Part shown: in pieces, positions 2,215 through 7,069 of the stretch
Position numbering within the stretch: the stretch's first letter is position 1
How the letters are laid out: the number at the start of each line of letters is the position of its first letter
Origin: a virus
Strand: one strand, 5' to 3'
DNA: 20,285 nt
IMG/VR virus record: IMGVR_UViG_3300042294_002150
Span: 1 to 20,285 of that record
Program-made: the position numbers and the translations under genes
The notes under the pieces: generated by a model
Told to the model about the DNA's origin: nothing
Database searches by the model: none
What the model saw: the letters and a program-made list of their open reading frames with translations, nothing else

Positions 2215-3645
2215 ATGCAACTTGACGCTCGACTTCCCCTGATGGCGGCCCAGCGCCAGCCGATGCAGTTTGCACCTGAGTCGCAGCTGCAGACGCTGTC
2301 GCGGATTGCGCCTGGGATCAATGCGCTGCGGGGGGTGCAGCAGCAGCAGATGGAAACTGCCGAGGCTGTGCGCAAGCAGCAGGCGTACCAGCAGTTTCAG
2401 TCTGAGGTCGCCAAGGCGTTTCCAGGCGGCGTGAAAGAACTGGCTCGCGTTTTTATGACGCAGGGCACAACCCCTCAGCACTTTGAAGTCGGCCAAAAGC
2501 TGATGCAGACGGCGATGGAGGAAGACGAGCGCCAGAGAATCTTTGGCGGCGGCGGTGCGCCTGCGATGGCCGAGCAGCCTGCCGCCATGCCGGCCGCAGC
2601 ACCAGAAGCAGTGCCAGAGATGGACTTTGGCGCTGCTGGAGGCGCCCAGCCCGTGAACGCCATGATGGCACAGGCCGCGCCTGCAAAGATGCTGGAGTAC
2701 GCCGGTAGGCAGTATTCGCCAGATCAGGTCGGGCAGATGCTGCAAAGCAGAAACCCGCAGTTGCAGCAGCTTGGGCGGTCAATTGCGGATGCGAACAAGC
2801 CAAAAGCGGATCGAGAATTTGCGCCGTCTGAAATCTCGCGCCTGCAGCAAGAAATTGCTCAGTTGCCGGCAGGCGACCCGCGAAGGGCTCCGCTGGAGCA
2901 GCGAATTCAGATGCTGACAACGCGGCCGCCAGCAGCGTCAACCAGCGTGGAAGTGAAGCTGCCGGAACTTGAGAAAAAAGAGCGCCAATCCAAGGGCGAG
3001 TTTAACGTCCGATCCTACGAGACAATTTCTCAGGCGGCTAGGCTTGCGGCAAGAACGTTACCAGCCATAGATACTCAATCGAACCTGCTTGACAAGGGCT
3101 TCCGCACCGGATTCGGTGCCGATGTGCAGAAAGCCGCAGCATCTGTGTTGTCCGCTCTTGGAGTGCCAGAGGCAAGTCAATACGCGACCGATGCTCAGTC
3201 ATTTACCGCCGCCCTCAACCAGACGGTTTTGCAGCGCCAGCTTGAACAAAAAGGCGTACAAACTCAAGCGGACGCCGACAGAATTCAGGCAACTGGCGCC
3301 CAACTTGGAAACACGGTTGAGGCAAACAAGTTTATTCTGGATGTCGCAAGGGCTCAAGCCAAACGCGACATAGAGCAACGAGCGTTCTGGGATAAATGGT
3401 GGAGGGAAAACAAGACCTACGAGGGCGCTGAAGATGCTTGGTATTCCGGAGAAGGCGGCAAGTCATTGTTTGACCGGCCGGAGTTACGCAAATATGTTCG
3501 GCAGCCTGCGGCCAATCCGCCTGCGCGCACTCCGCAGACTGGTCGGCCGGCTGGCGTTGGCGCCGACTGGACGCTGAAGCAGGACGCCAAGGGCAATCGA
3601 GCGTGGGTTAGCCCTGATGGCAAAAGGTTTGTGGAGGTCAAATAA
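2215..3645 (+). CDS. Virion protein, Gln-rich, second of three putative ejection proteins
   Basis: 476 residues from the ATG at 2215, preceded by a GGGGG tract (2202-2206) that can act as ribosome binding site; an in-frame TTG at 2200 would add five residues and overlap the previous gene. The N-terminal 130 residues are rich in Gln, Ala and Met. A conserved-looking block runs from about residue 250 to 430, with KGVQTQADADR, AQLGNTVEANKF and WWRENKTYEGAEDAW. I have seen these motifs in phage structural proteins of unknown function. The C-terminus (about 450-470) contains WTLKQDAKGNRAWVSPDGK, a short beta-like element. The TAA stop shares one base with the next ATG (TAATG). A structural or injected-protein role is inferred from composition and neighbours. 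Confidence 0.65.
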   Translation: MQLDARLPLMAAQRQPMQFAPESQLQTLSRIAPGINALRGVQQQQMETAEAVRKQQAYQQFQSEVAKAFPGGVKELARVFMTQGTTPQHFEVGQKLMQTAMEEDERQRIFGGGGAPAMAEQPAAMPAAAPEAVPEMDFGAAGGAQPVNAMMAQAAPAKMLEYAGRQYSPDQVGQMLQSRNPQLQQLGRSIADANKPKADREFAPSEISRLQQEIAQLPAGDPRRAPLEQRIQMLTTRPPAASTSVEVKLPELEKKERQSKGEFNVRSYETISQAARLAARTLPAIDTQSNLLDKGFRTGFGADVQKAAASVLSALGVPEASQYATDAQSFTAALNQTVLQRQLEQKGVQTQADADRIQATGAQLGNTVEANKFILDVARAQAKRDIEQRAFWDKWWRENKTYEGAEDAWYSGEGGKSLFDRPELRKYVRQPAANPPARTPQTGRPAGVGADWTLKQDAKGNRAWVSPDGKRFVEVK

Positions 3646-5360
3646 TGGCGTTCGACCTTTCTACTGCCAAGCCGGTTGAGCAGGAGCCCGCCTCGGGTTT
3701 TGATCTTGCTACCGCTCGGTCTGCGTCAGAAGTTCCCGGCCCACGACGCCGCGCTTCTACGATGGACATCATCACCAGCGCGCCATATCGCGCTGTTGCT
3801 GGCGCGGCGGACATCTTTCTGACGGCGCCGCAAAACGTGGCCAATCTTGCCAAGATGGGATTTGGCACGGCGGCCACCGCGCTTGGCAGGCCCGATCTTG
3901 CGCCAGACGTCACCGCGCCTCGGCAGCCCGTTGCAGAGGCATTCAAACGCGCTGGGCTCATCCGCGAACCGCAGGGCGAAACCACTGCAGGCCAGCGAGT
4001 GCTTGATGTTGCCCTGCAGGGCGCGACTGGGGCGGTGCTTGGCGGGGCTGGCGGCATTGGTCAAGCCGCAAAGACGCTGCCGCAACTGGCGCGGGCCACA
4101 ACCGGCATGGCCGCAACTGGGGCCGTTGCCGGCGCGGCGGGTCAAGGCGTCACCGAGGTTACCGGGCAACCGCTGCTGGGGGCCGCAATTTCAATGGCGA
4201 CGCCGGGAGTTGCCATCAGCGCCGCACAAGCTCGCCAAGCTCGATTGCAGGCAGAGCAGGCGCGGAATGCTGTGCGCGATTTGACGCTTCGACAGGGCCA
4301 AGCTGAAGGCTACATTGCAACGCCCGGAAGCATTACGCCATCAACCCAAAACGTGCTGGCGGAACGCCTTGCGGGCAAGACACGAACGCAGCAGGAATTT
4401 GCTGTCCGCAACCAAGAGGCGACGGATTTTCTTGCGCGAAGGGCTCTTGGCTTACCGCCAGACGCAAGGCTTGAGCGCAGCACAACGCAGCAGATCCGCA
4501 AGGACGAGTTTCAGAAGGGATACGAACCGTTGAACCGGATCGGCACTGTAAAAACCGATCAGGACTTTGACAGCGCCTTGAACAATGTGTTGCAGGCGTA
4601 CACTGGACCGGGCCGGTCTTTCCCTGGAGCCATTCCGCAGCCCGTTGTTGATCTGGTCAATTCGTATCGCGTGGGGCAGTTCAATTCTGCAGACGCCTTG
4701 CAGGCCACCAGAACACTACGAGAGCAAGCCAACGCCAACATTTCTCGCGGCGACAACGCGCTTGGTTTAGCGCAAAGAGCCGTCAGCAATGCGCTGGAAG
4801 ACCAGATTGAGCGTTCGCTGCAGCAGGCTGGCAATCCGAACGCTCAGGCCATGCTTGAGCAGTTCCGAGCATCTCGGCAGCGCATGGCAATCAGTCACGC
4901 GGTAGAAGACGCCATCATCGAAGGCGGTGGCTCCGTCAACGCAAGGCAACTCGCCAACGATCTGCAGACCAGAGGCAAATACTTCAGCGGCGACCTAGAC
5001 CTGATCGCACGATTTGCCAACATCTCGCGGCCGGTGATGGTGCAACCTGGCACTCAGGGCACGCCTGGATCGCAAACACTGTTTGGCGGCATAGGCGGAG
5101 GCCTCGGCGCTGCGGTTGGCTACGCTATGGGCGGGGCGCAAGGCGCAACCCTTGGTGGCGTGGTGGGTGCCATGGCTCCAGCAGCAGTTTCCGCTGGAGC
5201 AAGGCGCTACCTCAGAAGCGACTTGGCGCAGCAAAGGGCAATTCCCACCTACGACTCGCCGACTGTCAATGCGTTGGCGGCTCAAAACGAGGCGCTTTTG
5301 CGCGCGGCGATGGGCATTCCGACGTTCACAAATCAGCCTGTCAACGCCCTAGCCCCATGA
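3645..5360 (+). CDS. Virion protein, third putative ejection/internal protein
   Basis: 571 residues. The start overlaps the previous TAA by one base and has GGAGGT (3633-3638) seven bases upstream of the ATG. The N-terminus carries a short duplicated motif, FDLSTAKPV (residues 3-11) and FDLATARSA (19-27), a tag-like repeat I associate with the N-termini of large internal virion proteins. Residues about 126-186 and 479-515 are Gly/Ala-rich and hydrophobic, resembling membrane-inserting segments (VLGGAGGIG; GGIGGGLGAAVGYAMGG). The middle is largely charged helical sequence. No lytic transglycosylase catalytic motif was found, so an enzymatic role is not claimed. The stop overlaps the next start as ATGA (5357-5360). 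The three proteins together resemble the trio of ejection proteins of P22-like podoviruses in size and order, though no homology to that trio is established here. Confidence 0.65.
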   Translation: MAFDLSTAKPVEQEPASGFDLATARSASEVPGPRRRASTMDIITSAPYRAVAGAADIFLTAPQNVANLAKMGFGTAATALGRPDLAPDVTAPRQPVAEAFKRAGLIREPQGETTAGQRVLDVALQGATGAVLGGAGGIGQAAKTLPQLARATTGMAATGAVAGAAGQGVTEVTGQPLLGAAISMATPGVAISAAQARQARLQAEQARNAVRDLTLRQGQAEGYIATPGSITPSTQNVLAERLAGKTRTQQEFAVRNQEATDFLARRALGLPPDARLERSTTQQIRKDEFQKGYEPLNRIGTVKTDQDFDSALNNVLQAYTGPGRSFPGAIPQPVVDLVNSYRVGQFNSADALQATRTLREQANANISRGDNALGLAQRAVSNALEDQIERSLQQAGNPNAQAMLEQFRASRQRMAISHAVEDAIIEGGGSVNARQLANDLQTRGKYFSGDLDLIARFANISRPVMVQPGTQGTPGSQTLFGGIGGGLGAAVGYAMGGAQGATLGGVVGAMAPAAVSAGARRYLRSDLAQQRAIPTYDSPTVNALAAQNEALLRAAMGIPTFTNQPVNALAP

Positions 5361-5626
5361 CCCCCCGCCCCGCCCGCCACATCATCGCCTGGTTCCTGCG
5401 CCGCTTCGGCTTCGCAGGCGTGGCGCTGGCGCCGTGGGGGATTTTTGTGCTGCCCGAGCATCTGGCAAACCAGCGCCTGACTAGGCACGAAATCGCCCAC
5501 TGGCGGCAATACCAGCGCATGGGCTTGCTGCGATACTACGTCACGTACCTATGGGGTCTGCTGCGCCACGGGTACACCAACCATCCAATGGAAATCGAAG
5601 CCCGCGCGGCCGAACATCAGCCATGA
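5357..5626 (+). CDS. Mini zinc-metallopeptidase-like protein (HEXXH)
   Basis: 89 residues, coupled to both neighbours through ATGA overlaps. It contains an exact HEXXH zinc-binding motif, TRHEIAHWRQYQRMG, with H44, E45 and H48. The downstream NHPMEIEARA supplies Glu79 or Glu81 as a possible third ligand. The spacing is short, as in stripped-down gluzincin-like folds. A hydrophobic stretch (residues 18-32) may lie at a membrane. I have seen this type of small HEXXH protein in other phages without an assigned function. It sits directly upstream of the holin, so a role in lysis or envelope modification is possible but unproven. The motif is certain; the activity is inference. Confidence 0.7.
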   Translation: MTPRPARHIIAWFLRRFGFAGVALAPWGIFVLPEHLANQRLTRHEIAHWRQYQRMGLLRYYVTYLWGLLRHGYTNHPMEIEARAAEHQP

Positions 5627-5832
5627 GCTTGACGATGCAACAGAAAGCCGACATCGCCGCCGAAGCCGCCAAGGCATCGCCACCAGTTGCCGTTGCCGGC
5701 GCGACCATTGCCGGCATGCCGATCAATGACTTGGTGTTGTGGGCGACGCTGATCTACCTGGTGCTGCAGATCGGCTTTCTGCTGTATCGTTGGGGCAAGA
5801 TGCACTTCCAGCGCGCGCCGGATACCGAATGA
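5623..5832 (+). CDS. Holin, single transmembrane segment
   Basis: 69 residues starting at ATG 5623, which overlaps the previous TGA (ATGA). The N-terminus is helical and polar (QQKADIAAEAAKASPP). After a short hydrophobic stretch (VAVAGATIAG) comes one clear membrane segment at residues about 35-56 (DLVLWATLIYLVLQIGFLLY), then a basic tail starting RWGK. Size, charge distribution and position just ahead of the endolysin fit small phage holins of the T7-type/class II group, which form membrane lesions that trigger lysis. An open frame runs upstream to 5551 in the same frame, but the coupled ATG is the natural start. The family is recognised by pattern only; a pinholin is the main alternative because the endolysin appears to have a signal-anchor. 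Confidence 0.75.
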   Translation: MSLTMQQKADIAAEAAKASPPVAVAGATIAGMPINDLVLWATLIYLVLQIGFLLYRWGKMHFQRAPDTE

Positions 5833-6077
5833 GTCTTTTGATTGCACTAGACTACGACGGCACATACACTGCCGATCCGGAGCTATGGAACTCATTTATT
5901 GCGTCGGCGCGCAAAAATGGTCACATGGTCAAAATTTTGACCATGAGATTTCCGCATGAAGAAATTGCAAATCCGCCATGCGAAGTGGTTTATACATCGC
6001 GGCGCGCAAAAGCAGAATTCATGCCGGCAGACATTTACATTGATGACAAGCCGTTTTTCTTGTTTGCAAACGGGTAG
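5829..6077 (+). CDS. Small HAD-superfamily hydrolase-like protein
   Basis: 82 residues from ATG 5829 (ATGA overlap with the holin stop). All four HAD motifs can be placed: motif I as ALDYDGT with D8 and D10, motif II as the Thr of KILTMR (T38), a motif III Lys candidate K61 (SRRAKAEF), and motif IV as IYIDDKP with D72 and D73. No cap domain would fit at this length, so it would be a minimal phosphatase-like fold. GC is about 46 percent by my count, far below the genes on either side. With its position inside the lysis cassette this suggests a recently acquired moron-type gene. Possible substrates are small phosphorylated metabolites or nucleic-acid ends; nothing in the sequence decides. Confidence 0.75.
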   Translation: MSLLIALDYDGTYTADPELWNSFIASARKNGHMVKILTMRFPHEEIANPPCEVVYTSRRAKAEFMPADIYIDDKPFFLFANG

Positions 6078-6083
6078 CCATCA

Positions 6084-6542
6084 ATGAAAGCCCGCATCGT
6101 CATCGGCGCCCTGACGCTCTCGGCGTCTGCGCTGGTCGGCATTGCCGTCCATGAGGGCTATCGTGGCGAGGCGTACATTCCGGTCAAGGGCGATGTGCCG
6201 ACCATCGGCTTCGGCACCACTGCCGGCGTAAAACCCGGCGACCGCATCGAGCCCGTGCAGGCTCTGGTGCGCAAGCTGCAGGATGTGCAGCGCTTCGAAG
6301 GGGCGCTGAAACAGTGCGTTCGGGTGCCGCTGCATCAGTATGAGTACGACGCCTTTCTGAGCTTGGCGTACAACATCGGGCCGGGGGCGTTCTGCGGCTC
6401 GACGCTGGTGCGCCGGCTGAACGCGGGCGATTACGCCGGGGCCTGCGCCGAGATCCTGCGCTGGGATCGCTTCCGTGGTGAGCCTTTGCGCGGTCTGACC
6501 CTGCGCCGCCAAGCCGAGAACCGGCAGTGTCTGGGCCAATGA
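6084..6542 (+). CDS. Endolysin, glycoside hydrolase family 24 lysozyme with N-terminal signal anchor
   Basis: 152 residues. It hydrolyses the glycan strands of peptidoglycan at lysis. The lysozyme core is obvious: HEGYRGEAYIPVKGDVPTIG, with catalytic Glu24, Thr40 and Asp37 as the nearest acidic partner. The family Asp normally lies four residues nearer the Glu; the IPVxGDVPT variant seen here is common in related phage lysozymes. YEYDAFLSLAYNIGPGAFCGST follows as the second core helix. Residues 4-22 are moderately hydrophobic, Gly/Ala/Ser-rich and preceded by KAR, which fits a signal-anchor-release segment like that of P21 endolysin, so export could be Sec-dependent. The ribosome binding site is weak. 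The stop overlaps the Rz start as ATGA. Confidence 0.92.
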   Translation: MKARIVIGALTLSASALVGIAVHEGYRGEAYIPVKGDVPTIGFGTTAGVKPGDRIEPVQALVRKLQDVQRFEGALKQCVRVPLHQYEYDAFLSLAYNIGPGAFCGSTLVRRLNAGDYAGACAEILRWDRFRGEPLRGLTLRRQAENRQCLGQ

Positions 6543-7069
6543 TCTACCGCCCCGTCGCCTACGCTCTGGGTGTGGTCTGCATCGGCTTGGTGGCGCTGTC
6601 GGGCACGCTGCTGTGGGAGCTGCGCGGCACCGAAACCACGCTGGCCCGAGAGCGCGCAAAACGGGCTCAGGAGCGCGAGAAACTGGTGGCCGAGGCCTTG
6701 GCAGCCAGCGAAGCCGCGCGAGCCTTGGAGGCCCGCTGGCGAGCCCAGCACACGGAGGTGCAGACCGATGCCCAGAACCGAATCCGCGCTGCGTCGGCTG
6801 ACGCTGCCCGTGCTCGCAGTGCTGCTGACAGCCTGCAGCGCCGTGCCGAAGTCATCGCCGCCCAGTGCGCCCATCCCACCCGCGACAGTGCCAGCCCTGC
6901 CCCCGGAGGGGCGGCAGCCCAAGACCCCGGAGTTGTGCTCGCCAACCTGCTCCGAGGGGTTGCGCAAGCGGCTGGAGAGCTTGCTGCCGTAGCGGACGCT
7001 CGGGGCACTGCCGGCGCGGCCTGCGAGCGGGCCTACGACGCTATAACAGCGCCGCTGCCCCAGCGATAG
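6539..7069 (+). CDS. Rz: i-spanin (Rz-like inner-membrane spanin)
   Basis: 176 residues from ATG 6539, coupled to the endolysin stop. A short cytoplasmic start (MIYRPV) leads into one membrane segment at about residues 6-26 (ending SGTLLW). A long charged, Ala/Arg/Glu-rich periplasmic coiled coil follows (about 30-110), typical of Rz and DUF2514-type spanins. With Rz1 it bridges the inner and outer membranes and disrupts the outer membrane in the last step of Gram-negative lysis. The C-terminal part is Ala/Pro/Gly-rich. A complete Rz1 frame lies inside it in another frame. The end runs 29 bases into the 3' end of a small minus-strand gene. Assignment rests on topology, position and the nested partner. 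Confidence 0.85.
   Translation: MIYRPVAYALGVVCIGLVALSGTLLWELRGTETTLARERAKRAQEREKLVAEALAASEAARALEARWRAQHTEVQTDAQNRIRAASADAARARSAADSLQRRAEVIAAQCAHPTRDSASPAPGGAAAQDPGVVLANLLRGVAQAAGELAAVADARGTAGAACERAYDAITAPLPQR
6768..6992 (+). CDS. Rz1: o-spanin (Rz1-like outer-membrane lipoprotein), wholly embedded in Rz
   Basis: 74 residues, in a different frame from Rz and entirely inside it. ATG 6768 has its own strong ribosome binding site GGAGGTG (6754-6760). The protein has a basic start, a hydrophobic signal (LTLPVLAVLLTAC) and a lipobox LTAC with Cys23 as the acylation site. The mature part is short and proline-rich (PPSAPIPPATVPALPPEG), as expected of Rz1 lipoproteins. It ends with a charged C-terminus suited to contact Rz. 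The lipobox, proline-rich body, own Shine-Dalgarno and nesting together make this a confident call even without a database match. Confidence 0.9.
   Translation: MPRTESALRRLTLPVLAVLLTACSAVPKSSPPSAPIPPATVPALPPEGRQPKTPELCSPTCSEGLRKRLESLLP

Follow-up and report, generated by a model that had tools for sequence, protein, structure and literature searches.

The lysis cassette of the viral contig analyzed here (IMG/VR record IMGVR_UViG_3300042294_002150; "the window" denotes its whole 20,285-nucleotide stretch) carries a small gene, inserted between the holin and lysozyme genes, whose product adds a new member, in an unusual location, to a known but uncharacterized phage HAD family. It is probably best understood as a minimal, capless HAD phosphomonoesterase carried as accessory cargo.

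The HAD gene and its neighbors in the lysis cassette

The coordinates given for the open reading frame (ORF) in an earlier note on this DNA are correct (ATG at 5829, TAG at 6077), and its description of an 82-residue ORF with four HAD motifs between holin and endolysin agrees with the families and the motif conservation found here (Table 1). The ATG overlaps the holin stop codon in an ATGA at 5829 to 5832, and a gap of 6 nt separates the HAD stop codon from the lysozyme start at 6084. The lysozyme has a hydrophobic N terminus, a feature of signal-anchor endolysins. Farther downstream, the ORF nested in the Rz-like spanin gene is probably the Rz1 outer membrane lipoprotein, judging from its translation. 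Upstream of the holin, at 5357 to 5626, lies an 89-aa protein with an HEIAH motif, kept in the HAD-bearing relatives L004, L005, L006, and L011; it matches phrog_37302 (function unknown) and, weakly, phrog_15610 ("protease") and is possibly a small zinc peptidase of the lysis region.

TABLE 1 Features of the lysis cassette in the window
Feature	Position	Strand	Evidence
Holin	5623..5832	+	PF10746, E = 6.1e-7; phrog_920, E = 1.8e-20; stop overlaps HAD start (ATGA)
Minimal HAD-like protein, 82 aa, PHROG 4256/4919 family	5829..6077	+	ORF; phrog_4256, E = 4.7e-17; phrog_4919, E = 2.4e-16
255-bp insert relative to empty sites	5829..6083	+	Junction comparison; flanked by ATGA, at the holin stop and HAD start on the left and at the lysozyme start on the right
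HAD motif I codons D8-Y9-D10	5850..5858	+	Invariant in 37/37
HAD motif II codons T38-M39-R40	5940..5948	+	T38 at 90% or more; R40 invariant
HAD motif III codon K61	6009..6011	+	Invariant
HAD motif IV codons D72-D73	6042..6047	+	D72 invariant; second position D or N in alignment
Lysozyme-type endolysin	6084..6542	+	PF00959, E = 3.2e-36; phrog_7
Rz-like inner-membrane spanin	6539..7069	+	PF10721 (DUF2514), E = 2.4e-17; phrog_312, E = 1.3e-28
Probable Rz1 lipoprotein, nested in Rz, other frame	6768..6992	+	Translation; LTAC (LLTAC) lipobox read by eye; Pro-rich

The break in composition reported earlier, at about 46% GC, was confirmed: the GC content of the HAD gene is 0.458 (45.8%) versus 0.633 (63.3%) for the window. 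Its GC3 is 0.500, compared with 0.707 ± 0.050 expected from the codon use of the other genes for the same amino acids (z = −4.2), and lies under all 2,000 codon-use simulations (minimum, 0.524). Among the 35 tabulated ORFs, it has the lowest GC, GC12 (0.439), and GC3; two long ORFs have larger z values (−4.7 and −5.0) at a GC3 of 0.63. We also considered a perfect 22-bp palindrome within the gene (5924 to 5945) as a binding site and rejected it: it is broken in the related copies L003 and L006, and an equally long palindrome appeared in 7 of 300 dinucleotide-chain shuffles of the window.

HAD motifs and predicted fold

The motifs of the window protein read D8-Y-D10-G-T12 (motif I), T38-M-R40 (motif II), K61 (motif III), and D72-D73 (motif IV), and residues D8, Y9, D10, G11, T12, Y13, W20, R40, K61, D72, and P75 are invariant in 37 aligned homologues. 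The AlphaFold (AF2) model (mean pLDDT, 97.2; pTM, 0.86) has a Rossmann-like core, with strands at residues 4 to 8, 33 to 38, 53 to 55, and 69 to 71 and helices between them. Each motif stands where a HAD protein has it: motif I, with the pattern DxDx(T/V), after S1 (residues 4 to 8), T38 closing the strand 33 to 38 (S2), K61 beginning the helix 61 to 63 before the strand 69 to 71 (S4), and D72 and D73 directly after that last strand. Part of PMC8069645 describes the layout of HAD motifs at strand ends, and the four motifs of the window protein match it. The model has no cap, and strand S5 of the five-stranded HAD sheet is absent from it: there are four strands, and the chain ends soon after S4. 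Because the motifs and the fold are those of a HAD protein, we treated the missing S5 as a truncation of the core; with neither a cap nor a fifth strand, the protein would therefore be a minimal C0-type HAD core.

Structural comparison with the PDB by VIA-align gave a Z score of at least 5 for 80 of 1,000 chains, none reaching 8, and the top rows superposed over residues 1 to 80 at about 2.5 Å, as expected of a HAD core. Among the 50 matches listed, which, judging from their titles, are HAD proteins, the top one was 2pr7 (Z = 7.6), and others were 3bwv (deoxyribonucleotidase-like; Z = 7.1) and AphA (1n8n; Z = 6.2); the PDB chains among these listed matches all have at least 121 residues. Plain Foldseek against the PDB returned nothing at an E value of ≤0.001 (best, 0.067), with HAD proteins mixed among other Rossmann-like folds; against viral models, it returned 13 at that threshold, one of them titled HAD-like. 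In a sequence search of solved structures, none was found for the window protein, and the profile gave chance matches only. Pfam had no family for the protein, with weak, scattered matches among the members, and NCBIfam yielded zero families for the window protein itself; TIGR01484 (HAD-IIB) was weakly matched by 19 of 37 members (best E value, 2.7 × 10−4). The predicted Rossmann-like HAD core and its alignment to HAD proteins bear out the assignment first made from the letters, and motifs and model together support a minimal, capless member of the HAD superfamily.

Occupied and empty sites at lysis-gene junctions

We fetched the 80 best of 231 relatives of the window lysozyme and the 80 best of 116 relatives of its holin. 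Together with the first loci, these gave 124 loci with both genes, loci lacking either being excluded, and removing loci of the same contig by name, by hand, left 65 contigs, including the window. The holin and lysozyme genes abut or overlap (−4 or −1 nt) in 59 of these, typically as GATACCGA-ATGA-AAGCCCGC. The same 255-bp HAD insert lies between the two genes in five contigs (the window, L003, L004, L005, and L006), with ATGA or GTGA at its left border and ATGA at its right one; owing to the ATGA repeat, its edges may slide by up to 4 nt. The remaining contig, L202, has a different gene at this junction, a homologue of a 90-aa ORF of L008.

On a tree of 52 nonidentical holin-plus-lysozyme rows, the four HAD rows fall in four places and imply four changes, at least three of which are forced by well-supported branches; shuffled labels gave a mean of 3.9, and the observed number is no smaller. 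The window's nearest rows, at 94% identity, lack the gene; the indel is thus young enough to differ between phages that share about 94% identity in holin plus lysozyme. The empty sites and this scattered distribution support insertion of the HAD gene in the lysis cassette; the tree cannot separate its gain from its loss. In L005, the HAD gene (3182 to 3430) begins like those of L003 and L006 and continues like that of the window, which suggests a mosaic formed by recombination inside the insert. Recombination between genes of these phages is likely, and it blurs gain versus loss.

The HAD gene is also found at another lysis-gene junction. L007 to L011 carry an AT-rich copy, 72 to 74% identical to that of the window, in the order 90-aa ORF, HAD, second holin or 55-aa ORF, and then an M15-type endolysin, with no lysozyme. 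In ten other contigs, the genes flanking this second junction overlap by start/stop codon, without HAD; L211, an eleventh, likewise lacks HAD and has another holin at this site. Two distinct start/stop junctions of lysis operons have thus received the gene, whether each by its own entry or by movement from one to the other. As for the 90-aa ORF (L008, 4720 to 4992; L202, 2704 to 2973), it matched no PHROG at 0.01; it occupies the holin-lysozyme junction in L202, precedes HAD or the second holin in other relatives, and, like HAD, is an optional gene at junctions between lysis genes.

Selection, age, and AT-richness

Between the window and L003, the HAD gene has 15 synonymous and no amino acid changes, and the protein is under purifying selection. 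The dS of this pair is 0.36 for HAD, 0.35 for the holin, and 0.29 for the lysozyme; because the HAD value is similar to those of its neighbors, the gene has been resident in such cassettes for a while. The recent acquisition proposed in the earlier note thus stands as an insertion and in part as a recent one: the indel separates close relatives, yet the HAD gene has diverged like the holin and lysozyme genes.

All ten lysis-located contigs have a HAD GC of 0.37 to 0.49 versus a locus GC of 0.59 to 0.63, and AT-richness, being common to all of them, alone gives no date. The copies in L008 (5001 to 5249) and L011 (725 to 973) have a GC3 of 0.33 to 0.37 versus 0.72 to 0.84 in neighboring genes, at a dS between them of 2.3, a value unreliable near saturation. 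Synonymous sites are likewise saturated between the window and the 74%-identical second-junction copies, and both are AT-rich, so AT-richness is not a clock. Either the low GC is selected or the copies are renewed from an AT-rich pool, and renewal is tentatively favored because the junctions are polymorphic. Scans with the window, A2, L013, and L008 proteins found no AT-rich donor above 64% identity outside the lysis-located group; the nearest there were L012 and L013, from AT-rich phages (locus GC, 0.42 and 0.40; gene GC, 0.30), and the L013 gene adjoins head-tail genes.

AT-richness as a family-wide trait was rejected. Across 37 loci outside the lysis-located clade, a set that includes near-duplicates as well as L053 and L055, whose ORF starts are called too far upstream, the median GC3 difference to flanking ORFs was −0.05, with negative values in 21 of the 37 (Wilcoxon P value = 0.80). 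Relatives with the gene at host-like GC, which the earlier note had held to speak against its view, thus exist among the distant members and are absent from the lysis-located ones.

The wider phage family and its genomic settings

By tblastn, the window protein matched 304 of 50,697 phage records, all at less than 60% identity; scans of IMG/VR gave 44 to 48 loci of the family, and 4 related loci came from scanning genomes for a single conserved peptide pattern. PHROG 4256 and PHROG 4919, both of unknown function, were each matched by all 37 aligned members, which are 80 to 127 aa long. In named phages, the HAD gene adjoins ribonucleotide reductase and thymidylate synthase in one setting and, in others, thymidylate synthase and GroES, DNA polymerase, or a position upstream of terminase genes. 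Neighbor tallies elsewhere include terminase, portal, nucleotide kinase, ribonucleotide reductase, and methyltransferase; these scans covered 57 of 121 upstream and 53 of 109 downstream ORFs, with families recorded as tallies only, after a selection by eye that removed near duplicates, the lysis-located loci, and many ORFs that were short or on the minus strand and likely spurious. Packaging genes are as frequent as nucleotide genes near the distant members, and the link to nucleotides is weak because the neighborhoods are mixed. None of the 37 members matched a PADLOC model, a collection that holds defense and not counter-defense proteins. In the open-licence literature, we found no paper joining haloacid dehalogenase with holin and endolysin or a lysis cassette and none on the PHROG 4256/4919 numbers, BT0820, or PNK phosphatase residues.

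Role of the HAD protein

The HAD gene looks like optional cargo, gained and lost where lysis genes meet, and not like a part of the lysis machine, because holin-lysozyme sites are empty in relatives, its distribution on the tree is scattered, and a second junction exists with and without it. The lysis operon would then be a landing place and an expression slot rather than the site where the protein functions. The protein would be made late, the ATGA overlap coupling its translation to that of the holin. Asp8 would attack the phosphate, with Asp10 as general acid/base; Thr38, Arg40, and Lys61 would hold the phosphate, and Asp72 and Asp73 would bind Mg2+, in an active site left open by the lack of a cap. 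We favor a phosphomonoesterase since the residues for HAD chemistry are all present. The substrate may, as a tentative guess, be a nucleotide or a phosphorylated nucleic acid end, a proposal based on the open, capless site and on the nucleotide and replication neighborhoods of part of the family. PMC8069645 and, similarly, PMC7066176 describe macromolecules as the typical substrates of C0 HADs whose active sites are open, MDP1 and PNKP being examples. Of the late activities first imagined for the enzyme, action on nucleotides is plausible and action on cell wall precursors is unsupported. A bolder version is doubtful: that this four-strand, 82-residue protein has all it needs for catalysis, ranks with the smallest HAD enzymes, and is encoded by a mobile one-gene module that repeatedly lands on lysis-gene start/stop overlaps, is expressed with the lysis genes, and acts late on macromolecular phosphate (nucleic acid ends or a host or membrane target).

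Were the gene a true component of the cassette, its protein might tune the timing of lysis, for instance by removing phosphate from a lysis protein or from a precursor linked to the membrane. Such a role agrees with the occurrence of the gene at a pair of different lysis-gene junctions, where its frame is kept and start/stop overlap couples it, as well as with purifying selection and with the ability of capless HADs to act on membrane lipids (lipin/Pah; PMC7066176). However, it is missing from 59 of the 65 holin-lysozyme contigs, persists next to endolysins of two unrelated types (lysozyme and M15 peptidase), and shows by eye no signal peptide or membrane segment in its 82 aa. Since the gene is absent from most sister cassettes and distant members lie outside lysis regions, among packaging, replication, and nucleotide genes, it is unlikely to serve lysis specifically.

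The inserted DNA might also matter more than its protein, by uncoupling translation of the endolysin from that of the holin and so changing the holin:endolysin ratio. The 4-nt overlap does turn into a 6-nt gap behind another gene, every insert sits exactly on a translational-coupling junction, and the homologue of the 90-aa ORF fills the same junction in L202; but such junctions may simply be where insertion harms least, and amino acid purifying selection and invariant catalytic residues are unexpected for a spacer, which makes this reading very unlikely. It is doubtful, too, that the protein is a catalytically dead HAD that serves to bind or inhibit, for instance, a host defense. Its unusual shortness, the missing S5, and a presence/absence polymorphism typical of conflict genes would suit that idea, whereas distant homologues keep all catalytic positions and the PADLOC search was empty for all members, although its models concern defense rather than counter-defense.

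With the gene read as accessory cargo encoding a small phosphatase, lysis operons that are nearly identical except for its presence or absence make, together with a second independent junction, a clean natural experiment. The function of a very common, unstudied phage HAD family is now directly testable, as is whether lysis operons act as landing sites for cargo. If active, the protein would show how little of a HAD core suffices for catalysis.

Comparison with known systems

The closest likeness is to PHROG 4256/4919, the same family, some of whose members, such as that of Vibrio phage 1.015.O, are annotated "HAD-like domain protein." The window protein is near the short end of the family's length range, and it lies in a lysis cassette, as none of the named-phage members examined does.

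The phosphatase domain of T4 polynucleotide kinase/phosphatase (Pnkp; 2ia5) probably shares its C0 HAD core with the window protein (Z = 6.7 over 80 residues, a score that ties with those of other HAD families), and its motif I and motif II S/T-x-R align with the HAD family; in contrast, the window protein has no kinase domain and is much shorter. An hhalign comparison of A2 with T4 Pnkp, with a single sequence on one side, was not significant (probability, 1.4%; E value, 0.035), and by sequence, membership in the PNKP group is not supported. BT_0820 (2obb), of the BT0820-family HAD phosphatases (NF046079), is likewise a small, cap-poor HAD (Z = 6.1 to the window protein), but it has 121 residues and the window protein has no significant sequence match to it; NF046079 was weakly matched by 1 of 37 members (E value, 0.059).

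Phage morons are likewise accessory genes of odd composition that sit between a pair of core genes and leave empty sites in relatives, and the HAD gene is such an extra gene relative to collinear phages, as the 59 of 65 empty sites show. Textbook morons have their own promoter and terminator. The abstract of PMC6469090 describes them as "transcribed independently." Unlike them, the HAD gene is locked into its operon by start/stop overlap: the ATGA shared with the holin and the 6-nt gap before the lysozyme leave little room for a promoter or terminator of its own.
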